From Dillenia suffruticosa (lineage: Eukaryota; Streptophyta; Magnoliopsida; Dilleniales; Dilleniaceae), in the NCBI GenBank assembly GCA_033439265.1, contig JAVTVX010000010.1, forward strand, positions 4,650,001-4,714,000: a stretch of DNA of 64,000 nucleotides, read 5' to 3'. Positions 16,559 to 31,130 of this stretch are shown here, piece after piece. Under the pieces are notes generated by a model, which did not search any database, had not been told where the DNA came from, and saw nothing but the letters and a program-made list of their open reading frames with translations. Within the stretch, counting starts at the first letter, position 1; every line of letters starts with the position of its first letter. The translations under genes and the position numbers were made by a program.

Positions 16559-18353
16559 AATGTTATCAGGTTCTATGGTCATATTACTCTTCATTCTCCT
16601 TAGAGCTTCCTTTATTTCATTAGAATGAATCTTATATTTAAAATTTCTATGAATCTTTTTTACAGGTATCGTGATATTTTATATATCTCTTGTATTCACA
16701 GCGTTAAAGAGATTATTAAAATAATCTCTTCAACGGTTTTTTATATCTTCATTCCTTACAAGTATAGTATTTGTTTCACTTTTAATATATTTAATACTAT
16801 TTAGATCTTTTCATTTTCTCTTCCTTAATTTGGCAATTTTAGAAGTCTCTCTTTCTCCCTCTTTAGTTTTCAATCACTTATATAATTCGTCATACTCCTT
16901 ACTTTTGGATTTGTGAATAATCATTTTCACCTCTTATTTTGTACTTTTTATATTTTTCATATGTATTACTATTTTTATTATTATTAAGGTCCCTACAATA
17001 CTTTTGTTTAGTTTGAATAGCAATTTGTATTTTCTTATTCCATCACTACAAGTCTATTGGAGCCCGACCCTTAGATACTCCTAAAACCTCTTTACCAATA
17101 CTCTTAATATTATTAAATATCTCATTCCATATTATTTATGAATCATCTTTAATAGACCAATTTGCTATTTGAATTAATTTTTTCGTAAAAGTTATCGCAT
17201 TTTCTTTTAAATTCTATCACTTAATTCTTAACTCCACAAATGGATAATATTACCTTTGCTTTTTAAGTACATGTATATCTAAAACTAAAATCTTATGTTA
17301 GGTTACTACACTCTCTTCCAGTATAATTTTACAATTCTTACAAGTCATTTTATCTTCTCTTCTGATGAGAAAGAAATCTATTTGAGTGGCATTCGATCCA
17401 CTTCCATACGTGGCTATCTGTAACTTTTTTTTCTTAAAAAGGGTGTTTACAAGCAACAAATCGAATATTGTGACAAATTCTAAAATGGTACCTCCCGCCT
17501 TATTTCTATTATCAAAGCCAAAATTACCTTTGCCTTTTAAGTACATGTATATATAAAACTAAAATCTTTTACTAAGTTATTACACTCTCTCCCGATATAA
17601 TTTTACAATTCTTATAAGTCATTTTATCTTCTCTCCTGATGAGAAAAAAATCTATTTGAGTGACATTCGATCTACTTCTATACATGGCTATCTACGACTC
17701 TTTTTTCTTGAAAAGGATGTTTACGAGTAATAAATCGAATGTTGTAACAAACTCTAAAATGGTATTTCTCTCCTCATTTCTATTACCAAAGCCAAAATTT
17801 CCATATACGATTTCGAATCTCTTATCTTCTCTCTTATATGTCTATTTAAATCTCCTCCAATAAATAATTTCTCTCAACTTGATATGATTTGTATAAATTT
17901 ATCTAAATTCTCTCAAAATTATTTTTCTTAATTGTATTTATAACTATTGGGAATACATACACACTGATTATATTAATTATATTTTCTCCATTAAATAACT
18001 TGACAAATATAATTCTATCATACTTTCTCCTTATCTCTACCATATCCTTTTTTAAATCTTTATGTACAATTATTTGTATTTCATTTTTAGTTCTATTTCT
18101 ACATGTGTATCAAAATTTATGACCATAAGTTCTATTATTTTAACATTGTCTCCCACCCACTTAGTTTTTTAGAGACACATGATATAATTTTTAGTCTACT
18201 CATTATTTTTCCTATCTCTCCTAACTTGTCGGTTAAGAATTCTATGTTCCAAGTGGTTAGGGAAATCCGATTATTTATCTGCACCCTAGGGTCCCTTACT
18301 AATATTACACTTGGGATCTGATATAGCATATTGTTGAGGGGGAAACGTGCCAA
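16559..18353 (-). mobile_element. RTE-type LINE fragment (endonuclease to start of RT)
   Basis: Read on the - strand. The apurinic-type endonuclease begins near 18270 with LTTWNIEFLTDKLGEI, the RTE counterpart of the TWN...LTGK motif. It continues through the conserved end of the nuclease (GSGSNATQIDFFLIRREDKM, 17298-17546). The linker typical of RTE elements follows (YKKYKNEVKMIIHKSKSKEY at about 16900-16970), and the start of RT near 16590 (PDNI). The RT core and 3' end are missing and several frameshifts and stops occur, so it is a dead fragment. The start of the open frame at 18353 need not be the native start. Confidence 0.82.
17251..17800 (-). repeat. Tandem duplication of 274 bp inside the LINE
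   Basis: 17251-17524 and 17525-about 17800 are diverged direct copies: both contain TTAAGTACATGTATAT near their start and the same endonuclease-end coding segment. The period is 274 bp. Both copies encode the GSRSN/TQIDFFLIRRED-type block, so the domain end is present twice. Confidence 0.85.
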
Positions 18354-19199: not shown

Positions 19200-22100
19200 T
19201 GTCACACCCTGAACCGGGGTTATGAACAACTGCCCATTGCCCTGGATGTCAGCTATATTTTTATAAAAAATCGGACAGAATCTCCCCATATTTCGAAGGT
19301 CTCCCAAGTATAATTTGATCTATATATCAATATTTATCCTGTAAAATAAATAAATGGTCATTCCGATCTCTCCAAAATCAACCAATACCCAAGCCAACAT
19401 CCAAAACAACGCAAGACTATAAAAATTTCCAGCAGAACTAACCACAAACCCCTACTGTCATGCCCAACTAGAGCATGAGCAGTCACCACACCGAGCCGAC
19501 CTAAAATTTTACATAATATATAATAATTTTCCCAAGTGACATTCAAATACCTACAATCGTCTCAATACAAATAAACTATGAGAGTTTCACAAATAAATAT
19601 ACATAAATTATACAGTCATCCCAAAAATAATTAAATGAGTACATTTATCAAACTAAAATCTCCAATAATCGTAGCGAAAAATATAATAACATCCATATCC
19701 AAATCCGGTATTATCAAGTCCACATCGTAAGAATACAATCACAATAATGCTTCCTCAGTTCACGACAAATCCTATGGGAAAGAAAGTGAGGGGTGAATAT
19801 CTTTGGGAGGATACTTAGCAAGTGAGGGGATTGATATCATACTATCAATATCAAGTGTGAATTTTGAGCGTCAAAACATGTAACAAAATATCGAGTGTGC
19901 AAAAATAACATACTGTTTCAGAGTAAAACATATCTCAAGGCACACATCAGAAAATAAAATATGCATCCATCCATGTATCAAGTCGCAAATATAGAGCCGG
20001 CCGAACAAACAACCCTGACAATAGTCTACCTAGACCAAGGACGGACGCATTTGGGGTTTTCACTATGCAAATATCAAATAATGGCTCTATACCCCAATAT
20101 TAGCTACAGACTACTCCAACTAACCTGTAAATAAAAATAATGATACATACATATAATCGGCCGTGTATGATGTCCCGCCCAGTGCTAGACAGAGGTAAAC
20201 TCACGTCCTCCCCGATGAGGGTCAACCAGGGATACCCATACACATGACGATATGGCGGATACCTCCAGCCGAAACGTATCCGGGCACAAGAGGTACCTCT
20301 ACCAAATGTCTTTCGTAGGTACGGAATGCTATATGAAGCATATCACCATATCACCAAATCGGCCGAGCACGTAGCCCCATGCATCATATCATCATGTCAA
20401 CCGGCCATATAGCCCCATACATCGTAACATAATTTCGACTGGGCGTATAGCCCAAATAGTACTTGTAAATACATTTAAAATTACGTCCCAATACAGTAGA
20501 ATTATTAAAGCATGTCAATATATTAAAAAAGAATTGCACAGTATTCGGTTATCAAATTCATGGATGCAAATCAATAAAATCAACAATTGGGACACTCTAA
20601 TGGTCACAAAAATATGTTTATCAAAATCCAAAAATTTAGTTTTCACATGTATATAAATCATGTCGTTTGAAAATCGGTAAAATATGATTTGTCAATAAAT
20701 AGAAGATATCAAAGTTCTACTCACTGTATGGAAGAGGGTAGCGCACTCTCCAATAATACCACAAAGTGAAGAAAGAATGCTCTCCTCAATCGATCAAGCG
20801 GTACATCACTACAATAAGAGTTTACACATAACACATTAAAGGTGTTATAGCATTTGGGAATTAAACGTCATATTTTAACTATCCCTTTCAACTATCCAAA
20901 TAACAACTCCAACCACACATTATCAGAGGTACCCAACGCAATGAATGCGATGCTAACATCAACTATTTATATCATCATTTACATCTCCAATGTCTTCTCT
21001 AAATCATCAAAATGGCAATATAGGGTACACACCATGAAAACACCCAACTCAAGATAAAACCATAATATTATTAACCATCAAATGCATCATTCATCTATCC
21101 AATACAACACCATAGCATATATCTACCATATATGCATACTCATACATGTTCTTGTAAAATCTTGTCATTTACACATTTTCAAATCACTTAAATACACTAA
21201 TATTGGCAATACATGAACACACAATCATACATCCTTATACCTACATATAAACCTTCATTTTGCTTATTAAACACCATTCCCAATACTCCTAACAACATGC
21301 TATATTTGGGTACCCTCCAATGTACTTGGCCAATGTATTGCACATATATAGGGTCACAACTTTCACCTCAAAAATCAGCATGCATATACCCATAACTTCT
21401 CATGCTCATGCCCTAAATTTTATATGCATATAGTCACCAATGCACCACAAATATCTGTACACATTTGGACTCCCTTAGTGCAGAAAAATCCTATACTCAT
21501 TCTTACTCTCTTTTATGCATTAACACACATATGTAGACACTTTACTTCATGCCAAATTTCTGCACGTGTAATAGCACAAAAATCCTACACTTAACCTAAT
21601 TAACCACATACAACGTCAAAAAATACATTCTATTATAACCTAGTTTACATTCTAGTATATACAAAACTTGTTATCTTAAATTTATCTTAAATTCGATAAC
21701 CAAATTAAATGGATCTGAAATCCCTCACCTAGGGTTTTCTCGTAGTACAGACTTTTATCCGAATGTCTTCTCGATCACTCCAAGATCTGCAAGACTCCCT
21801 ATCAAGACAAGATTTATTAGTTAGATTATAAACACTTAGATCAAAATCAAAACCATAAGTCAGTTACCTACGTGGAGGTTCGCGGGCCATCACAGGCTCA
21901 CAGGCCATCACGGGCCAGCGGGCTCGTGGGTTCCTAGGTCAGCGGGCCAGTAGGCTTCGGCTCGTGGGCTCGCGGGTCTGTGGGCCAGTGGGCTAGCTGG
22001 CTAATGGGCCGACAGGCCTGCGAGCTGATGGGCATGCAGGCTAATGGGCTAACGGGCCGGCAGGCCTACGGGCTGGCGGGCCTGCGGCTGATGGGCCTGT

Positions 22101-22553
22101 AAGCTGGCAGTGGCTTGCGGGTCGTAGTGGCTTGCGGACTGGTGCGCCCTCGTGCGCTGAGGCGTGCTCGTGCGCAGGGCGCGCTCGCTCGCGGACTGAG
22201 GCACGCTGTGTTCACGCAGGGAGGATCGCACAGGGCTACGCTCGTGCTCGTGGAGAGGAGATCGCGAGGTGGCAGAAGGCGCTGCAGTTGCGTGCTGTGG
22301 CGGAAGGCAGTGCTCATAGAAGGAAAGGCACGATCGGTCGCAGCTCGCAGCGGAGGAATGTGAGGCGGCGGATTTGGGCGAAGCCGAAGAGAGAGAGAAC
22401 GAAATAGAGAGAGAAACCGAGAGGGAAAGAAGAAGAAGAAGAAGAAGATGATGATAATGATGATGATGGTGGTGGTGGTGGGCTATTGGAGGCGAAGCTC
22501 GCGGCGAAGGAGGAGCGGCGCCGCGGTAGGGGGGAGAAATGAAGGGTCGGGGG

Positions 22554-22587
<34 letters not shown>

Positions 22588-22889
22588 TTAGGGTTTCCAA
22601 CCCTAATCCTCAAATCAGATTTGGGGACGCAGCGTTTTGCCGCAAAATACTACGTCTCCATTTTTTTAAAATAATTATATATATTTATTTATGCATATAT
22701 ATTTTCACACCCATATTTCGTTAGAAATGCGAATTTCATAAAAATGAGATTTATTTCGATTTGCCAATTTGGCAAATTAAAATATACCAAAAAAGTAAAT
22801 TTAAAAACCCCCAAAATCAACAACCAATTTAAATAAATAAATTTCTCTCTATATAATTAAAATACAGACACCGCAATGTCGGTATTACA
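19200..22889 (-). repeat. 3' LTR of chromovirus 2 (left on +)
   Basis: On + it begins TGTCACACCCTGAACCGGGG and ends GGTATTACA, which on - is TGTAATACC...GTGACA, the same end style as the first element. At 3.69 kb it is very long. It holds an AT-rich half, a GC-rich minisatellite (21870-22200), and GA and GAT/GGT simple repeats (22380-22590). Long open frames on both strands at 22049-22613 (His-, Ser- and Leu-rich) are translations of these simple repeats. Confidence 0.88.
21870..22200. repeat. GC-rich GGGC-type minisatellite in the LTR
   Basis: A degenerate tandem array of about 10-bp units of the form GGGCTNRCGG within otherwise AT-rich LTR. The partner lies in reverse orientation at about 27440-27655 in the other LTR. 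Confidence 0.8.
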
Positions 22890-22903
22890 TTTTCTAACCC
22901 CTA
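22890..22903 (-). other. Polypurine tract of chromovirus 2
   Basis: On - it reads AGGGGTTAGAAAA next to the 3' LTR, the same core as at 9003-9016. Confidence 0.75.
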
Positions 22904-22949
22904 AAAACAAGTTTCGTTCTCAAAACTAAAAGAAAGCAATACACTGAAC

Positions 22950-23125
22950 AAGTGGGGGTACTATCTCCTAATAGTCTTCTCGGGCTCCCAGGTCTCTTTC
23001 TCGACCTGTCACTCCTTCACAAGACTCTGACCAACGAGACTTCCTTGCTCCGTAGCTTCCTGACTTGCTGATCTAAAATAGCCACAGGCTGAAATGAAAA
23101 ACTAAGGTCCTCTCTGACTGGCCGT
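22950..23125 (-). pseudogene. Chromodomain remnant of chromovirus 2
   Basis: On - the segment contains ILDQQVRKLRSKEVSLVRVL, the same hinge and strand as the chromodomain of the first element. It is joined directly to RT sequence near 23125, and its end is frameshifted. Confidence 0.7.
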
Positions 23126-23815
23126 CCGTCATCAGTTGTTTGAACTCCTGAAAACTCGTCTCACAATGATCGTCCAATAAGAACTTGACGCCCTTCACAT
23201 CAGTCTAGAAAGTGGAGCAGTGATATGGGAGAATCTTTTTATGAATCGCCGATAATACCCCATAAGACCAAGGAAACTCCGTACCTCGGTCACTGTCTGT
23301 GGCTGCTGGTGTGTTGGTCAGCCCAAACGGTATCACCACGAACTCATAATGTTCATATCGGGTGCGGAATGCGGTTTTGGGCACATCCTCAGCCCTGATC
23401 CGCAACTAATGATATCCAGATCGAAAATCAATCTTTGAGAAAAACACGCGAACCCTGGAACTGTTCAAATAAATCATCAATACGTGGCAGAGGGTACCGA
23501 TTCTTTATGGAAACCTTGTTTAGCTACCTACAGTTCACACATAATTGTAAAGTCCCACCTTCTTCTTCACGAATAACACCGAAGCACCCCACGGTGAAAT
23601 GCTCGGACAGATAAAACCCTTCTCCAGCAATTCCCGCAACTGGACCTTAAGCTCTCTAAACTCAGCTGGCACCATTCTGTATAGCGGAATAGTTATGGAG
23701 TGGTCCCTGGAGCTAGGTCAATTTCGAAATCAAACTCCTGAATTGGGGGTAGTCCGGGTAGCTCTTCGGGAAATACATCTGGAAACTCCTGCATCACTGG
23801 GACCTCCTCAAGTCT
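23126..23815 (-). pseudogene. Truncated reverse transcriptase of chromovirus 2
   Basis: On - the N-terminal RT part runs from about 23815 (ELPGLPP, then [19 protein letters not shown]) through [20 protein letters not shown] to a TNTPA segment near 23315. There the sequence jumps to the later connection region (the PQTVTEV/GYY block) with a frame change, so the YIDD catalytic box has been deleted. After a further stretch (FLLDDHCETSFQEFKQL) a second deletion leads straight to the chromodomain. RT activity is impossible. Confidence 0.85.
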
Positions 23816-24284
23816 TAGCCCTTCCATTGTGGTATCAATAACATGAGCCAGGTATGCCTACACCCTCGGTGTATCAATCTCCTAGCCTTCATCACCGATA
23901 CAACATAGCGAGGTAATATTCGCCTCTCGCTTGGGAATCTCGACAACGGCCCCTCGGGTCTCCGAAACTCCACTTCTTTGGTAAAGCAATCTACTGAGGC
24001 TCTATGCATGCTTAGCCAATCCATCCCTAGGATGGGATCAAAATCTGTCATCTCAAGTGGAATCAAGTCTGCCTCAGGTACCGTATCTCCGATCATGACC
24101 TTGCTCCCTCTGTAGACGGAATCTCTAAGTATCTACCAACCGAGAGGAGTGATGACCAATATCTCCTCATCAAGTGGTAACAAAGGCTTACTCAACCCGT
24201 GGGCAAAAGACACTCTCACATACGAATAGTTCGACCCGGTGTCAATGAGGACACGAGCGTCGACTTCCCACATGTTTACAACTC
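23816..24284 (-). pseudogene. Aspartic protease of chromovirus 2
   Basis: On - the active-site motif VLIDTGSNYSYVRVSFAH is encoded near 24190-24250, identical in its core to the first element. The later protease patch ILGMDWLSMHRASVD lies in the 23815-24096 frame, so one frameshift separates them near 24110. Coding probably starts at 24284, directly after the candidate splice acceptor. Confidence 0.85.
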
Positions 24285-24336
24285 CTATTGTGAGAAAATA
24301 AAAAAATCTGTTGATAAATATAGAAATATATATGCT

Positions 24337-24371
<35 letters not shown>

Positions 24372-24486
24372 AAATGTATATACATACCAACATAGTTAAG
24401 CCTCTAAGGCTATAATTAGTGATGGTGCTCTAAAGAAGGTACATAAAAAAAATATCTCTAAACATGGGGATCAGTGGGAGGAGCAC
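24285..24486 (-). other. Candidate intron between gag and protease
   Basis: On - this 202-bp stretch begins GTGCTCC and ends TTTTCTCACAATAG. It is AT-rich, contains stops in the gag frame (first at the codon after PTDPHV) and a (TA)n run at 24338-24370. Gag homology leaves it in phase 1 and protease homology resumes in phase 1, so removing it would keep the frame. The first element has a 203-bp spacer at the identical position. Confidence 0.55.
24338..24370. repeat. (TA)n microsatellite
   Basis: Uninterrupted TA run inside the gag-protease spacer. The first element has a short TA run at the matching place (5520-5531). Confidence 0.9.
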
Positions 24487-25910
24487 CAATAATCACGTCA
24501 GGACTCGCCTGAGCGTCCTTCTGCGTCATGGAGTATACACGGGCCTGTGTCCTCTGCTGCTGTCGGAATAGTCCTGGCACCGTGTTGCTCCCGACTGCTG
24601 TCCGTTGAGCGGTGTGACTCGAGTGCGCAGGTACTCCTTGCTGTCCTCCTCGGGGAACACTCGAGTGTCCTGAAGCCATCTGACTTCTAAATCCCAACTC
24701 AAGGTAGGCGCTCTTCATGTGCCCTAGCTTCCCACATCGGAAGCATGTAACAGGCACCCTACACTCTCCAAAAGGGTGGTGTCTACCACATCGGTGGCAA
24801 AAGAGATGCCGCTGATCAGAAGTCTGAGTAGTGGCACTAGGGGCCGGTGCTCTAAACCCCTAAGACCGCGATTCTTGCCCAGTATGTGTCTGTTTCAGCT
24901 GAGAAGAGCCTCTCTGATATCCTGAAATCCTGCCCTTCTTCGAGCCCTGGCTCGAAAAAGCCTCATATCTCTTCTTCCTCTGCTCTCTGTACTCCCGCTG
25001 TCTGTCCTTAGCATGGACGATCTCCTCCGCCCTAAGTGCTGAGTCCAAGATCTCTGTAAAGGAGAGACTAGGAGTCACTGTCATATACTTCCTGATATTT
25101 AAGTTGAGGTCATCCTCAAACTTGAACCGTAGTTGTTTCAGCATCGCCAAGTTTGGAACGAAAGAAGCTAGTCGCCTCATCTCCGTTTCATACTCTGTCA
25201 CTATCCTGATTCCTTGCCGCAAGTATAGAAACTCTGCCCTCTTGCGGTCTTACTGGAACTCAGAGAAGTACCTGCGATCGAACTCCCGCAGGAAGTCCTC
25301 CCATCGCAGCAGCTCGATAGTATCGTCACAAATCCCCTCCCACCAAGTGAGGGCGTCACCATTCAAGAGTCTCTCTACTATCTGAAGCCGGTAGTTCTCA
25401 CAAAACCCCAGATCAGTCAAAATTCTAAGAGTGCGATTGATCCAGTGCTTCGCTGCTGTGGAATTACCCTTTCCTGCGAACTCCGTGCAACCTAACTGCC
25501 TCTCCTCCTTCACCAATTGGGGTGAGCTCGTGAATACACCTCAAAGTGGAGGAGGTAGTGTCACTAGGTCTTGAAAGAGAGGAAGGACCAACAACTCAGG
25601 GCTGATCTGGTACAACTGAAGGTGGCACGGCCATAGGAGTCGGTGCGGCCATCGGTACTGGTGGGGGTGACATCTGAACCCCGTGGGAGGTGTACCACTC
25701 ATACACCTGCCTAAACACCTCAAGGGACGGTGGTGGAACCTCGGCTGGAGCAGCCAGCTGAATAGGCGCTGCAGGGGGCTCCCGTGAAGAGGAAGCAGCC
25801 TCAGGCACTCCAAGGGTCTCAGGTCCCCTCGGAGGGTCAGGCACTTGAGGAGTCTCAGGTAGCGCGAGTCTAGCTCCGCGTCCCGCTGGTCTACCATGTC
25901 TAGGCGGCAT
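24487..25910 (-). pseudogene. gag of chromovirus 2, nearly complete
   Basis: On - it begins at the ATG at 25910 (MPPRHGRPAGRGARLALPE). A proline-rich N-terminus follows, then after a frameshift near 25560 the capsid part at 25516-25250 (GDALTWWEGICDDTIELLRW) and, past one stop, 25222-24860 (RIVTEYETEMRRLASFVPNL). The zinc-knuckle region holds CHRCGRHH and CFRCGKLGHMKSA (24710-24810). It ends with the conserved run near SPDVII just before the candidate intron. Only about one frameshift and two stops interrupt it, fewer than in the first element, so this copy is younger or was under selection longer. Confidence 0.85.
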
Positions 25911-26098
25911 AATTCTGCAAGGAGAGAACTTTCATTAAATATAATTCTAGAGTTTGGCATGATTTAAAAATTAGGGTTAGTTACTACGTAACGACCATAT
26001 AGGAGACTTTAAATGATTGTATGAAACTCTCTAATGTATTAAGGACTTTTAAGCGTACTTGGGAATACTTTCATTACTATCCTTTCTCTAACCTAGAC

Positions 26099-26110
26099 GC
26101 TCTAATACCA
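26099..26110 (-). other. Primer binding site, tRNA-iMet type
   Basis: On - TGGTATTAGAGC lies 7 bases inside the 5' LTR edge and matches the initiator-Met tRNA complement with one substitution. Confidence 0.85.
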
Positions 26111-27117
26111 ACCGAACTGTCACGCCCCGAACCGAGATAATGAACAGCCGCCTGTTACCCTAGATGCCGGCTACATTTTTACAAAAAAATAGGTAGAACC
26201 TCCATATATTTCAAAGGTCTTCCAATTACAATTTGACCTGTATATCAACATTCATCCTTTAAAATAAATAAATGGTCATCCCGACGTCTCCAAAATCAAC
26301 CAATGCCATAGCCAACATCCAGAACAATGCAATACTATAAAAATTTCTAGCAGATCTAGCCACAAATCTCTACTGTCATGTCCAACCAGAGCATGAGCAG
26401 CCGCCACACCGAGTGGACATAAAATTTTATATAATATACAATAATTTTCTCAAATGACATTCAAATACCTACAATCGTCTCAATGGAAATAAACTATGAG
26501 AATTTTACAAATAAATATATATAAATTATACAGTTATCCCAAAAATAATTAAATGATTACATTTATCAAACTAAAATCTCTAATAATCGTAACGGAAGAT
26601 ATGGTAATATCCATACCCAAACCTGATACTATCAAGTCCAAGTCGCAAGAATACAATCACAATAATACTTTCTCAGTCTACGACTAATCCTATGGGAAAG
26701 AAAGTGAGGGGTGAATACCTATGGGAGGATACCCAGCAAGTGAGGGGATACCTCCGGCCGAAACGTATCCGGGCACAAGGGGTGCCTCTACCAAATGTCT
26801 TTCGTAGCTACGGAATGCTATAGGAAACATATCACCATATCACCAAGTTGGCCTGGCACGTAGCCCCATGCATCACATCATCATGTCGGCCGGGCATATA
26901 GCCCCATACATCGTAACATAACTTCGGCCGGGCGTATAGCCCAAATAGTATTTGTAAATACATTTAAAACTACGTGCCAATATAGTAGAAGTATTAAAAT
27001 ATGTCAATATATTAAAAAAGAATTGCACAGTATTCGGTTATCAAACTCATAGATGCAGATCAATAAAATCAACAGTTGAGACACTCTAATAGTCACAAAA
27101 ATATGTTTATCAAAATC

Positions 27118-27395
27118 TACCATCATCATCATCTTCTTCTTCTTCTTCTTTCCCTCTTGGTTTCTCTCTCTATTTCGTTCTCTCTCTCTGCGGCTTCGCC
27201 CAAATCCGTTGCCTCGCATTCCTCCGCCACAAGCCGCGATCGATCGTGCCTTTCCTCCGTGAGCACCGCCTTTCGCCACAACGCACGACTACAGCGCCTT
27301 CTGCCACCTCGCAATCTTCTCTCCACGAGCACGAGCACGGCCCTGCGCGATCCTCCCCGCGCGAACACAGCATACCTCAGTCCGCGAGCGAGCAC
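27118..27395 (-). repeat. Inverted repeat arm 1
   Basis: Reverse complement of 28983-about 29265. The two arms agree with each other better than with the matching part of the left LTR (both read MLARGLRYAVFARGGSRRAV where the left LTR differs). Confidence 0.8.
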
Positions 27396-28785
27396 GCCTC
27401 AGTCCGTGAGCACGAGCCACTCAGCGCATGAGTGCACACCAGCCCGCAAGCCACTACGGCCCGCGAGCCACTACTGGCCCGCAGGCCCGCCAGCCCGCAG
27501 GCCCATCAGCTCGCATACCTGTCGGCCCATTAGTCCGCTAGCCCACTGGCCCATAAACCCGCGAGCTCGCTAGCCGAAGCCCACTAGCTCGTTGACCCGC
27601 GAACCCACGAGCCCGTTGTAGCCCGTGACGGCCCGTAAGCCCGTGACAGCCCGCGAACCTCCATGTAGGTAACTGACTTAGGGTTTTGATTCTGATCTAA
27701 GTGTTTATGACATAACTAATAAATCTTGTCTTGATAGAGCGCTTGCAGATCTTGGAGTGATCGAGGAGACATTCGGACGAAAGTTTACGCTCTGAAAAAA
27801 CCCTAGGTGAGGGATTTTGGACCCATTCGATTTGGTTATCGAATTTAGGGTGAATTTAAGATAAGAAGTCTTGTATATAATAGAATGTAAACTAGATTCT
27901 AATAGAATGTATTTTCCGACATTGTATGTGGTTAATTAGGTTAAGTACAGGATTTTTTGTACTAAAAGAGTCCAAATGTGTACAGATTTTTGTGGTGCAT
28001 TAGTGACCATATGTATATAAAATTTAGGGCATGAGCATGAGAAGTTATGGGTATATGCATGCTGATTTTTGAGGTGAAAGTTGTGACCCTATATATGTGC
28101 AATGCATTGGCCAAGTACATTGGAGAGAACCCAAATATAGCATGTTATTAGGAGTATTGGGAATGGTGTTTAATAAGCAAAATGAAGGTTTATATGTAGG
28201 TATAAGGATGTATGATTGTGTGTTCATATATTGCCAATATTAGTGTATTTAAGTGACTTGAAAATGTGTAAATGATAAGATTTTATAAGAACATGTATGA
28301 GTATGCATATATGGTAGATATATGCTATGGTGTTGTATTGGATAGATGAATGATGCATTTGATAGTTAATAGCATTATGGTTTTATTTTGAGTTGGGTGT
28401 TTTCATGGTGTGTACCTTATGTTACCATTTTGATGATTTAGAGAAGATATTGGAGATGTAAATGATGATGTAAATAGTTGATGTTAGTATCGCATTCATT
28501 GCGTTGGGTACCTCTGATAATGTGTGGTTGGAGTTGTTATTTGGATAGTTGAAAGAGATAGTTAAAATGTGACATTTAATTCCCAAATGCTATAACACCT
28601 TTAATGTATTATGTGTAAACTCTTATTGTAGTGATATACCGCTTGATCGATTGAGGGGAGTACTCTTTCTTCACTTTGTGGTATTATTGGAGAGTGCGCT
28701 ACCTTCTCCCATACAGTGAGTAGGACTTTGATATGTTCTATTTATTTACAAATCATATTTTACCGATTTTTAAACGATATGATTT
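27118..28785 (+). repeat. Inverted segment inside the 5' LTR
   Basis: This part is the reverse complement of about 20650-22470 of the other LTR. An example is the coding-like block MNTQSYILIPTYKPSF, read on + at 21213 but on - at 28227. The left join follows TATCAAAATCTA at 27117 and the right join follows GATTTCTATA near 28787. The sequence after the right join repeats, in normal orientation, part of what was inverted. Confidence 0.85.
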
Positions 28786-28982
28786 CTATACGCTCCTGCG
28801 CTGAGGCACGCTCGTGCACTGAGGCACGCTCATGAGCTGACGCGCGCTCGTGCTCTGACGTGCGCTCGTGCGCTGACGTGCGCTCATGCGCATGTGCGTT
28901 CGTGGCCTGGCTCGCGTTGAGCGCACGTGCGCTCGCGGCCTGGCTCGCGTTCACGGGCTGGCTCGCGCTCACGGACTGAGGC

Positions 28983-29265
28983 ATGCTCGCTCGCGGACTG
29001 AGGTACGCTGTGTTCGCGCGGGGAGGATCGCGCAGGGCCGTGCTCGTGCTCGTGGAGAGAAGATCGCGAGGTGGCAGAAGGCGCTGCAGTCGTGCGTTGT
29101 GGCGAAAGGCGGTGCTCACGGGAGGAAAGGCACGATCGATCGCGGCTCGTGGTGGCGGAATGCGAGGCAACGGATTTGGGCGAAGCCGTAGAGAGAGAGA
29201 ACGAAATAGAGAGAGAAACCAAGAGGGAAAGAAGAAGAAGAAGAAGATGATGATGATGATGGTGG
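28983..29265 (+). repeat. Inverted repeat arm 2
   Basis: Partner of 27118-27395. About 1.6 kb separates the arms. Confidence 0.8.
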
Positions 29266-29340
29266 TGGTGGTGGGCTATTGACGGCGAAGCTCGCGGCGA
29301 AGGAGGAGCAGCGCCGCGGTGGGGGAGAGAAACGAAGAGT

Positions 29341-29389
<49 letters not shown>
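29341..29389. repeat. (GA)n microsatellite
   Basis: GA run near the LTR end. The shorter partner at about 22553-22580 lies in the other LTR. Confidence 0.9.
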
Positions 29390-29392
<3 letters not shown>

Positions 29393-29697
29393 TTAGGGTT
29401 TCCAACCCTAATCCCCAAATCAGATTTGGGGACGCAGCGTTTTGCCCCAAAACGTTACGTCTCTATTTTTTTTAAATAATTTTATATATATTTATGCATA
29501 TATATTTTCACATCCATGTTTTGTTAGAAATGCGAATTTCATAAAAATTGGATTTATTTCGATTTTCCAATTTGGTAAATTAAAATATACCAAAAAAGTT
29601 AATTTAAAAACCCTCAAAATCAAACACTAATTTAAATAAATAAATTTCTCTCTATATAATTAAATTACAGACACTGCATTGTCAGTGTTACAATCGG

Positions 29698-30639: not shown

Positions 30640-31130
30640 GTTAATATTCCTAATTTTATTATCGGTTATTGTGTTAAAAAATATTACTAATTTTATTGTC
30701 ACTTACAGAAGTATTAGGTTAGTAAATATTACTATCTTTATTGTTACTTACAGAATTATTGAGTTAGTAAATATTACTATTTTTATTGTTGTTTACAGAT
30801 TTATTGGTTAATAAATATTACTATATTTACTATTGCTTACAGAATTGTTGGGTTAGTAAATGTTACTATTTTTATTGTCGCTTACATACTTATTGGTTAA
30901 TAAATGTTACCACATTTATTATCGCTTACAAAATTATTGAATTAGTAAATGTTACTACTTTAATTGTATTTACAGACTTATTGATTAATAAATGTTACTA
31001 CTTTTATTGTCGTTTACAGAATTATTTGGTTAGTAAATGTTACTATATTTATTGTCAAAGGGATAGTAAATATTACTAATTTTAGTATCGTTTTTGTTGA
31101 TGAGTAAATTTTACTAATTTTATTGTCGTT
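30640..31130. repeat. Minisatellite, 44-45 bp unit
   Basis: About ten diverged copies of a unit containing TTAGTAAATGTTACTATTTT, followed by TATTGTCGCTTACAGAATTA. The unit length is not a multiple of three, and the open frame at 30786-31079 is a by-product of the array. Confidence 0.88.

Follow-up and report, generated by a model that had tools for sequence, protein, structure and literature searches.

Comparative analysis indicates that a 202-bp stretch of a Dillenia suffruticosa retrotransposon from a chromovirus-type family is very probably a spliceosomal intron, placed exactly between gag and protease, and that its retained or spliced state would set whether Gag or Gag-Pol is made. The stretch lies on the minus strand of the window, the whole 64,000-nucleotide piece of DNA that we analysed. 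The original prediction of an intron at this place is well supported at the family level, by GT-AG inserts at the same site and in the same phase in two families, by a spacing of exactly 66 nt where relatives lack the insert and by a copy with a precise loss in the second family; it fares less well on the window copy itself, which has a weak donor, is broken, comes from an internally deleted group and belongs to a family in which no footprint of loss was found.

Our own reading of the minus strand reproduced exactly the coordinates given originally, as well as phase 1 on both sides, the GT-AG ends and the T-rich 3' end. The gag frame (...D V I I) continues in phase 1 to position 24487 and is followed by G/GTGCTC at 24486, and the protease frame picks up in phase 1 at 24284, after the insert end ...TTTTCTCACAATAG at 24285. 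The length of the insert leaves a remainder of one when divided by three, and past the split codon the gag frame reads 8 codons of the insert before it meets a TAG. The insert has a U content of 0.44 and a GC content of 0.26, versus 0.23 and 0.54 in the flanks (100 + 100 bp). Thus GT-AG ends, U-richness and a frame-consistent junction, all features of spliceosomal introns, are present, with a donor that we take to be weak against the plant consensus. The genome-wide alignment that had been proposed as a check on the conservation of GT and AG retained both ends in most copies (Table 1).

Table 1. Features of the element in the window (a slash marks the splice junction; copy counts refer to the best 40 of 2816 candidates)
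Feature	Position	Strand	Remarks
Candidate intron	24285..24486	-	202 bp, GT...AG, phase 1, U-rich, variable (TA)n tract
5' splice site GT	24485..24486	-	context TTG/GTGCTC; GT in 38/40 aligned copies
3' splice site AG	24285..24286	-	context TTTTCTCACAATAG/G; AG in 34/40 aligned copies
gag stop codon TAG within insert	24458..24460	-	+26 nt from donor
gag remains	24487..25910	-	start probably at 25910; zinc knuckle at approximately 24748-24710; frame interrupted, for instance by a stop near 24860
Protease remains	23950..24284	-	two RVP_2 pieces, stop between
Reverse transcriptase remains	23121..23696	-	colinear with residues 192-323 and 413-475 of L059 pol stretch
Probable chromodomain tail	22964..23079	-	presumed, from recognition by eye
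5' LTR, rearranged	26118..29692	-	inverted block 27122-28791
3' LTR	19200..22889	-	remains of the LTR
Primer binding site TGGTATTAGAGC	26099..26110	-	presumably close to initiator-tRNA-Met type

The window copy is not a working element. Its gag pieces gave matches to Retrotrans_gag and zf-CCHC, both below the curated cut-off, while Retrotrans_gag was over the cut-off in the relatives L054 and L059. The downstream RVP_2 piece was matched over the cut-off, with an E value of 4.2e-11, and the upstream piece, at 7.7e-4, fell just under the cut-off. No Pfam match to reverse transcriptase was obtained with the window pieces, and none to Chromo in the window copy. Residues 324-412 of the L059 pol stretch are missing from it, and no match extends past residue 475, in the early RNase H (in L059, RVT_1 occupies residues 234-393 and RNase H residues 457-581). 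To judge from the shortness of the internal region (22889-26118), integrase is probably gone as well. The inverted block of the 5' LTR matches positions 20649-22455 of the 3' LTR in reverse with 82-95% identity; therefore one of the LTRs is rearranged or recombinant. It should be mentioned that the gap in reverse transcriptase (at about window position 23301), which takes in the second half of that domain, is common to the window copy and 12 other rows of the 40 aligned (L002, L003, L007, L008, L023, L024, L031, L032 and L037-L040), which form an internally deleted multi-copy subgroup.

To follow the family across the host genome (596 Mb, 37 contigs), we searched it with window positions 24000-25000 and aligned the best 40 of 2816 scored candidates, the window included. 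The insert was present in all 40 rows, with a deletion over its 3' end in L040; it was 180-209 bp long, and 147 bp in L040. A pattern of 29 bases covering the donor junction, allowed up to 3 mismatches, was found at 536 places of the genome and at none in the reversed control. The gag frame ended at a stop after the same short insert peptide in every readable copy (33 of 33, among the 40 copies). The mean pairwise difference was 0.066 in the insert versus 0.107 and 0.104 in the flanks of these copies; low G+C probably accounts for this lower divergence, so that it is no evidence of selection. Other stops are not shared by a majority of copies: the commonest pol stop occurs in at most 6 of the 14 copies covered and the commonest gag stop in at most 14 of 40, not counting two query positions that only a single copy covers. 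Apart from the insert, then, the frames appear to have been open while the family was spreading.

Four relatives without the insert (L041, L042, L045 and L046) are continuous across the insertion point of the window family, so that the boundaries of the insert can be defined without assuming splicing. Compared with insertless relatives, these boundaries can slide over three placements in the window family and six in the second family described below; given this slide, GT...AG ends would be expected by chance in roughly 1% and 2% of cases, respectively, by our own arithmetic. It had been proposed originally that relatives with an uninterrupted gag-pol frame and without the segment would refute an intron. 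Such relatives do exist, but they represent exact empty sites rather than a disproof. Some insertless relatives carry gag and pol in a single frame, e.g., in a 1611-aa open frame around L059. This one-frame structure is the prevailing organisation of the Tekay/Del branch, to which the element was originally assigned and putatively belongs by resemblance; it does not strictly define that branch and is found neither in the window family nor in the second family.

The distance between a gag-tail motif and a protease anchor was then compared among the rows. It was exactly 66 nt in 25 of the 35 rows without a visible insert, which belong to several families, and 48 nt in L080; nine of these rows had no usable motif (L042, L053, L055, L056 with a spurious hit, L062, L063, L064, L066 and L073). 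In the window family, where the motif was located in 31 of 40 rows, the distance was 246-275 nt in 30 rows and 154 nt in L040, and in the second family it was 199 nt in all three rows. Rows bearing an insert thus correspond to 66 nt plus the length of the insert.

The second family was revealed by a protease-profile search of the host genome, in which the best 150 of 5984 candidates were scored. At least 23 protease matches started at profile position 21 and not at positions 3-10, and nine of the 23 lay within a 1135-aa open frame. All 19 copies that were read among these 23 matches contained an insert of 132-133 bp at the same codon and in the same phase as that of the window, typically with the junctions AG/GTAAAT...TTATAG/GT; the donor is mutated in L078. 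The U content of this insert is 0.43 versus 0.26 in its flanks. Its donor junction was found at 96 places of the genome, with an exact match at 49, and nowhere in the reversed control; an internal pattern of the insert was found at 98 places, 96 of which lie 77-80 bp from a donor place. The 1135-aa frames at protease matches of this family hold seven chromodomain matches over the cut-off, and its member L054 gave matches over the cut-off to Retrotrans_gag, RVP_2, RVT_1 and RT_RNaseH, in the order gag-protease-RT-RNase H. The second family is a chromovirus, i.e., a Ty3/gypsy element with a chromodomain. With copies that are nearly identical and frames that are open, it appears to be younger than the window family.

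A pattern of the empty site of the second family was found at 14 places, and the single exact one was L054, which lacks exactly 133 bp compared with the insert-bearing L077-L079. It is 97.1-98.9% identical to them over about 1567 bp before the junction and 97.7-98.3% over 825 bp after it. In a first tree with L068 as the sole outgroup the place of L054 was not fixed; nearer rows fixed it, and L054 became sister to the insert-bearing L079 with support of 99/95 in one tree and 98/97 in another, older insertless copies included. The grouping of L077-L079 without L054 was rejected (AU p 0.005, a value that is somewhat generous because this group was picked after the earlier trees were known; L095 and L096 were left out for too few columns). 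At flank sites that distinguish the insert-bearing copies from the older insertless ones, L054 has the letter of the insert family in 19 cases out of 19, so that the idea that older insertless copies converted L054 is unsupported; the sites nearest the junction lie at -155 and +5, and a short conversion tract between them is possible. Thus, L054 is likely to be a footprint of splicing, for which precise loss through reverse transcription of a spliced RNA would be the simplest account. L097 may be another, weakly supported loss (83/85).

A corresponding footprint was not found inside the window family: its empty-site pattern gave six places, versus two in the reversed control, and these were L041, L042, L045 and L046, all outside the window clade, and two unrelated places. 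The window family is presumed to have been spliced in the way that the second family probably was.

The organisation of both families would provide a means of making two products. If the intron is retained, translation would stop 8 codons into the insert and yield Gag; if it is spliced, gag and pol would be joined in frame and yield Gag-Pol. The genomic RNA would usually have to be unspliced, since new copies nearly always keep the insert. From this arrangement we infer partial splicing that sets the Gag:Gag-Pol ratio. The weak donor of the window copy would fit inefficient splicing, yet it also counts against an intron. How plant gypsy elements with a single frame produce an excess of Gag over Gag-Pol is, to our knowledge, not settled. 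It should be mentioned that the gag stop lies 26 nt into the insert in both families (17 of 19 copies of the second family; in the window family all 12 copies listed, of 29), the inserts being unrelated in sequence. Simple frameshifting could not join gag and pol and was rejected as a mechanism, because the gag and protease frames nowhere overlap (29 of 29 readable among the 40 window-family copies and 19 of 19 second-family copies).

Two alternatives to an intron appear improbable to the same degree. According to the first, the insert is a spacer and pol starts anew, by re-initiation or internal entry, at an ATG on the protease side, with no splicing involved. An ATG does follow the junction directly in several relatives (V-M-N, V-M-K or T-M-K), and a two-frame organisation exists in other plant elements (PMC6317226). 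The window copy has no such junction ATG, and the interval from gag to protease holds several ATGs (6 to 8 from the gag stop to the acceptor in the 19 second-family copies), which makes re-initiation unlikely; moreover, separate translation leaves the GT-AG ends, the exact spacing and the loss of 133 bp in L054 unexplained.

The second alternative, no more probable than the first, is that a chance insertion or the growth of a microsatellite took place in a dead or trans-mobilised family, so that the insert would have no role and its GT-AG ends would be due to luck. The (TA)n tract of variable length in the window-family insert, the internal deletion of the window copy and the decay of its family, with an average of 5.6 pol stops per copy in addition to deletions, are in keeping with such an origin. 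Against it, 14 of the 40 insert-bearing rows retain pol beyond residue 540 (of 604) and come within 186 bases of where the fetched sequence ends, and therefore the insert is not confined to deleted copies; furthermore, the second family, whose pol frames are open, has an unrelated insert at this very nucleotide and in this phase, and GT-AG ends are present in both families.

Least probable of all is an origin of the second-family insert from a DNA transposon that duplicated 5 bp of its target, with L054 as its pre-insertion site or a clean excision: AGGTA does stand on both sides of the insert, but no terminal inverted repeats were seen by eye, 96 of the 98 places of the internal pattern adjoin a gag junction of this family, L054 cannot be a pre-insertion site because it is nested among insert-bearing copies, and the window family, which has no such duplication, would be left without an explanation.

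If the inserts are introns, as we prefer to read them, they could have been gained once or twice. In a pol tree (800 bp, 41 of 78 rows) the window family formed one clade with support of 99/98, with L041, L042, L045 and L046 outside it; L054 fell among the rows with the 133-bp insert, whose branching order was not fixed, and L068 fell outside. Two changes suffice to explain the presence and absence of inserts on this tree. Four changes were required on the tree that joined L054 to L079 with support of 99/95, which is otherwise weakly supported, this branch being the one starred among 19 inner branches. In the second family, the older relatives L097-L100 (about 83-96% identical) are insertless as well. 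A common origin of the two inserts received no support from their sequences, which share only chance words (best E 0.13); since this likeness is no better than chance, homology would have to be argued from position. Counting changes would favour two gains; the identical nucleotide and phase, the shared +26 offset of the stop and the likely loss in L054 would speak for a single ancient intron that was lost repeatedly. Tentatively, unrelated introns could have entered two chromovirus families independently, at one and the same gag/protease nucleotide and phase, each making a one-frame gag-pol dependent on splicing, and a burst of copies could then have followed, with the occasional reverse transcription of spliced RNA restoring the single frame.

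LTR elements of plants are described as generally intronless in a review that names Ogre and EVADE as exceptions (PMC12786077). In Ogre the intron lies between GAG-PROT and RT (PMC6317226). Ogre is a non-chromovirus (Tat) with an intron after protease and a gap averaging 274 bp, whereas the inserts described here precede protease and have lengths of 133 and about 200 bp, the second family being a chromovirus; they are not of the Ogre type, given the position before protease and the chromodomain. A facultative intron of 104 nt at the end of gag, the splicing of which makes Gag, has been described in the Ty1/copia element BARE1 (PMC3735527). Like that of BARE1, our candidate intron is short and U-rich, lies close to the end of gag and would change the amount of Gag relative to Pol; unlike here, where splicing would yield Gag-Pol, splicing in BARE1 yields Gag only. 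CRR is a centromeric chromovirus of rice. Transcripts of this Ty3/gypsy element are spliced with removal of rt (also PMC3735527), so that it offers a gypsy element with spliced transcripts, as proposed here, but without a gag/protease intron in that account. In the Arabidopsis Ty1/copia element EVADE, splicing to shGAG balances Gag and Gag-Pol (PMC12786077); there, in contrast to our families, it removes the protease domain and yields Gag. The Ty1/copia element Bianca has two frames about 172 bp apart on average and is similar to our families in this respect, splicing being not mentioned for it in the passage concerned (PMC6317226). In sunflower, spliced isoforms of two elements were reported, with no Tekay among the expressed elements found (PMC7730604). 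Among the matches listed in our literature search, judged by titles and the beginnings of abstracts and with subscription literature mostly outside its scope, no gag/protease intron was reported in a Tekay/Del element, and the viral contigs searched contained no relative.

A chromovirus intron between gag and protease would add to the few spliced plant elements named in these sources, namely Ogre, BARE1, EVADE and CRR. Related elements that have or lack an intron at one exact position occur in a single genome, among them the close pair L079 (with) and L054 (without), and they therefore allow a direct test of what splicing does. Such a genome also offers a natural archive of the frequency with which spliced RNA returns to it by reverse copying.

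Several repeated arrangements were noticed in the course of the searches. Nine similar, closely spaced protease matches, each with two TGA codons, lie at C24:19.12-19.35 Mb of the host genome (G000), and seven closely spaced chromodomain matches, each in a 367-aa frame, at C4:9.51-10.01 Mb, as if stretches of elements had been multiplied in arrays. In the window, an AT-rich tandem array with a spacing of 44-45 bp occupies positions 30648-31056, and two adjacent 274-bp copies, 87% identical, are located at 17246-17793.
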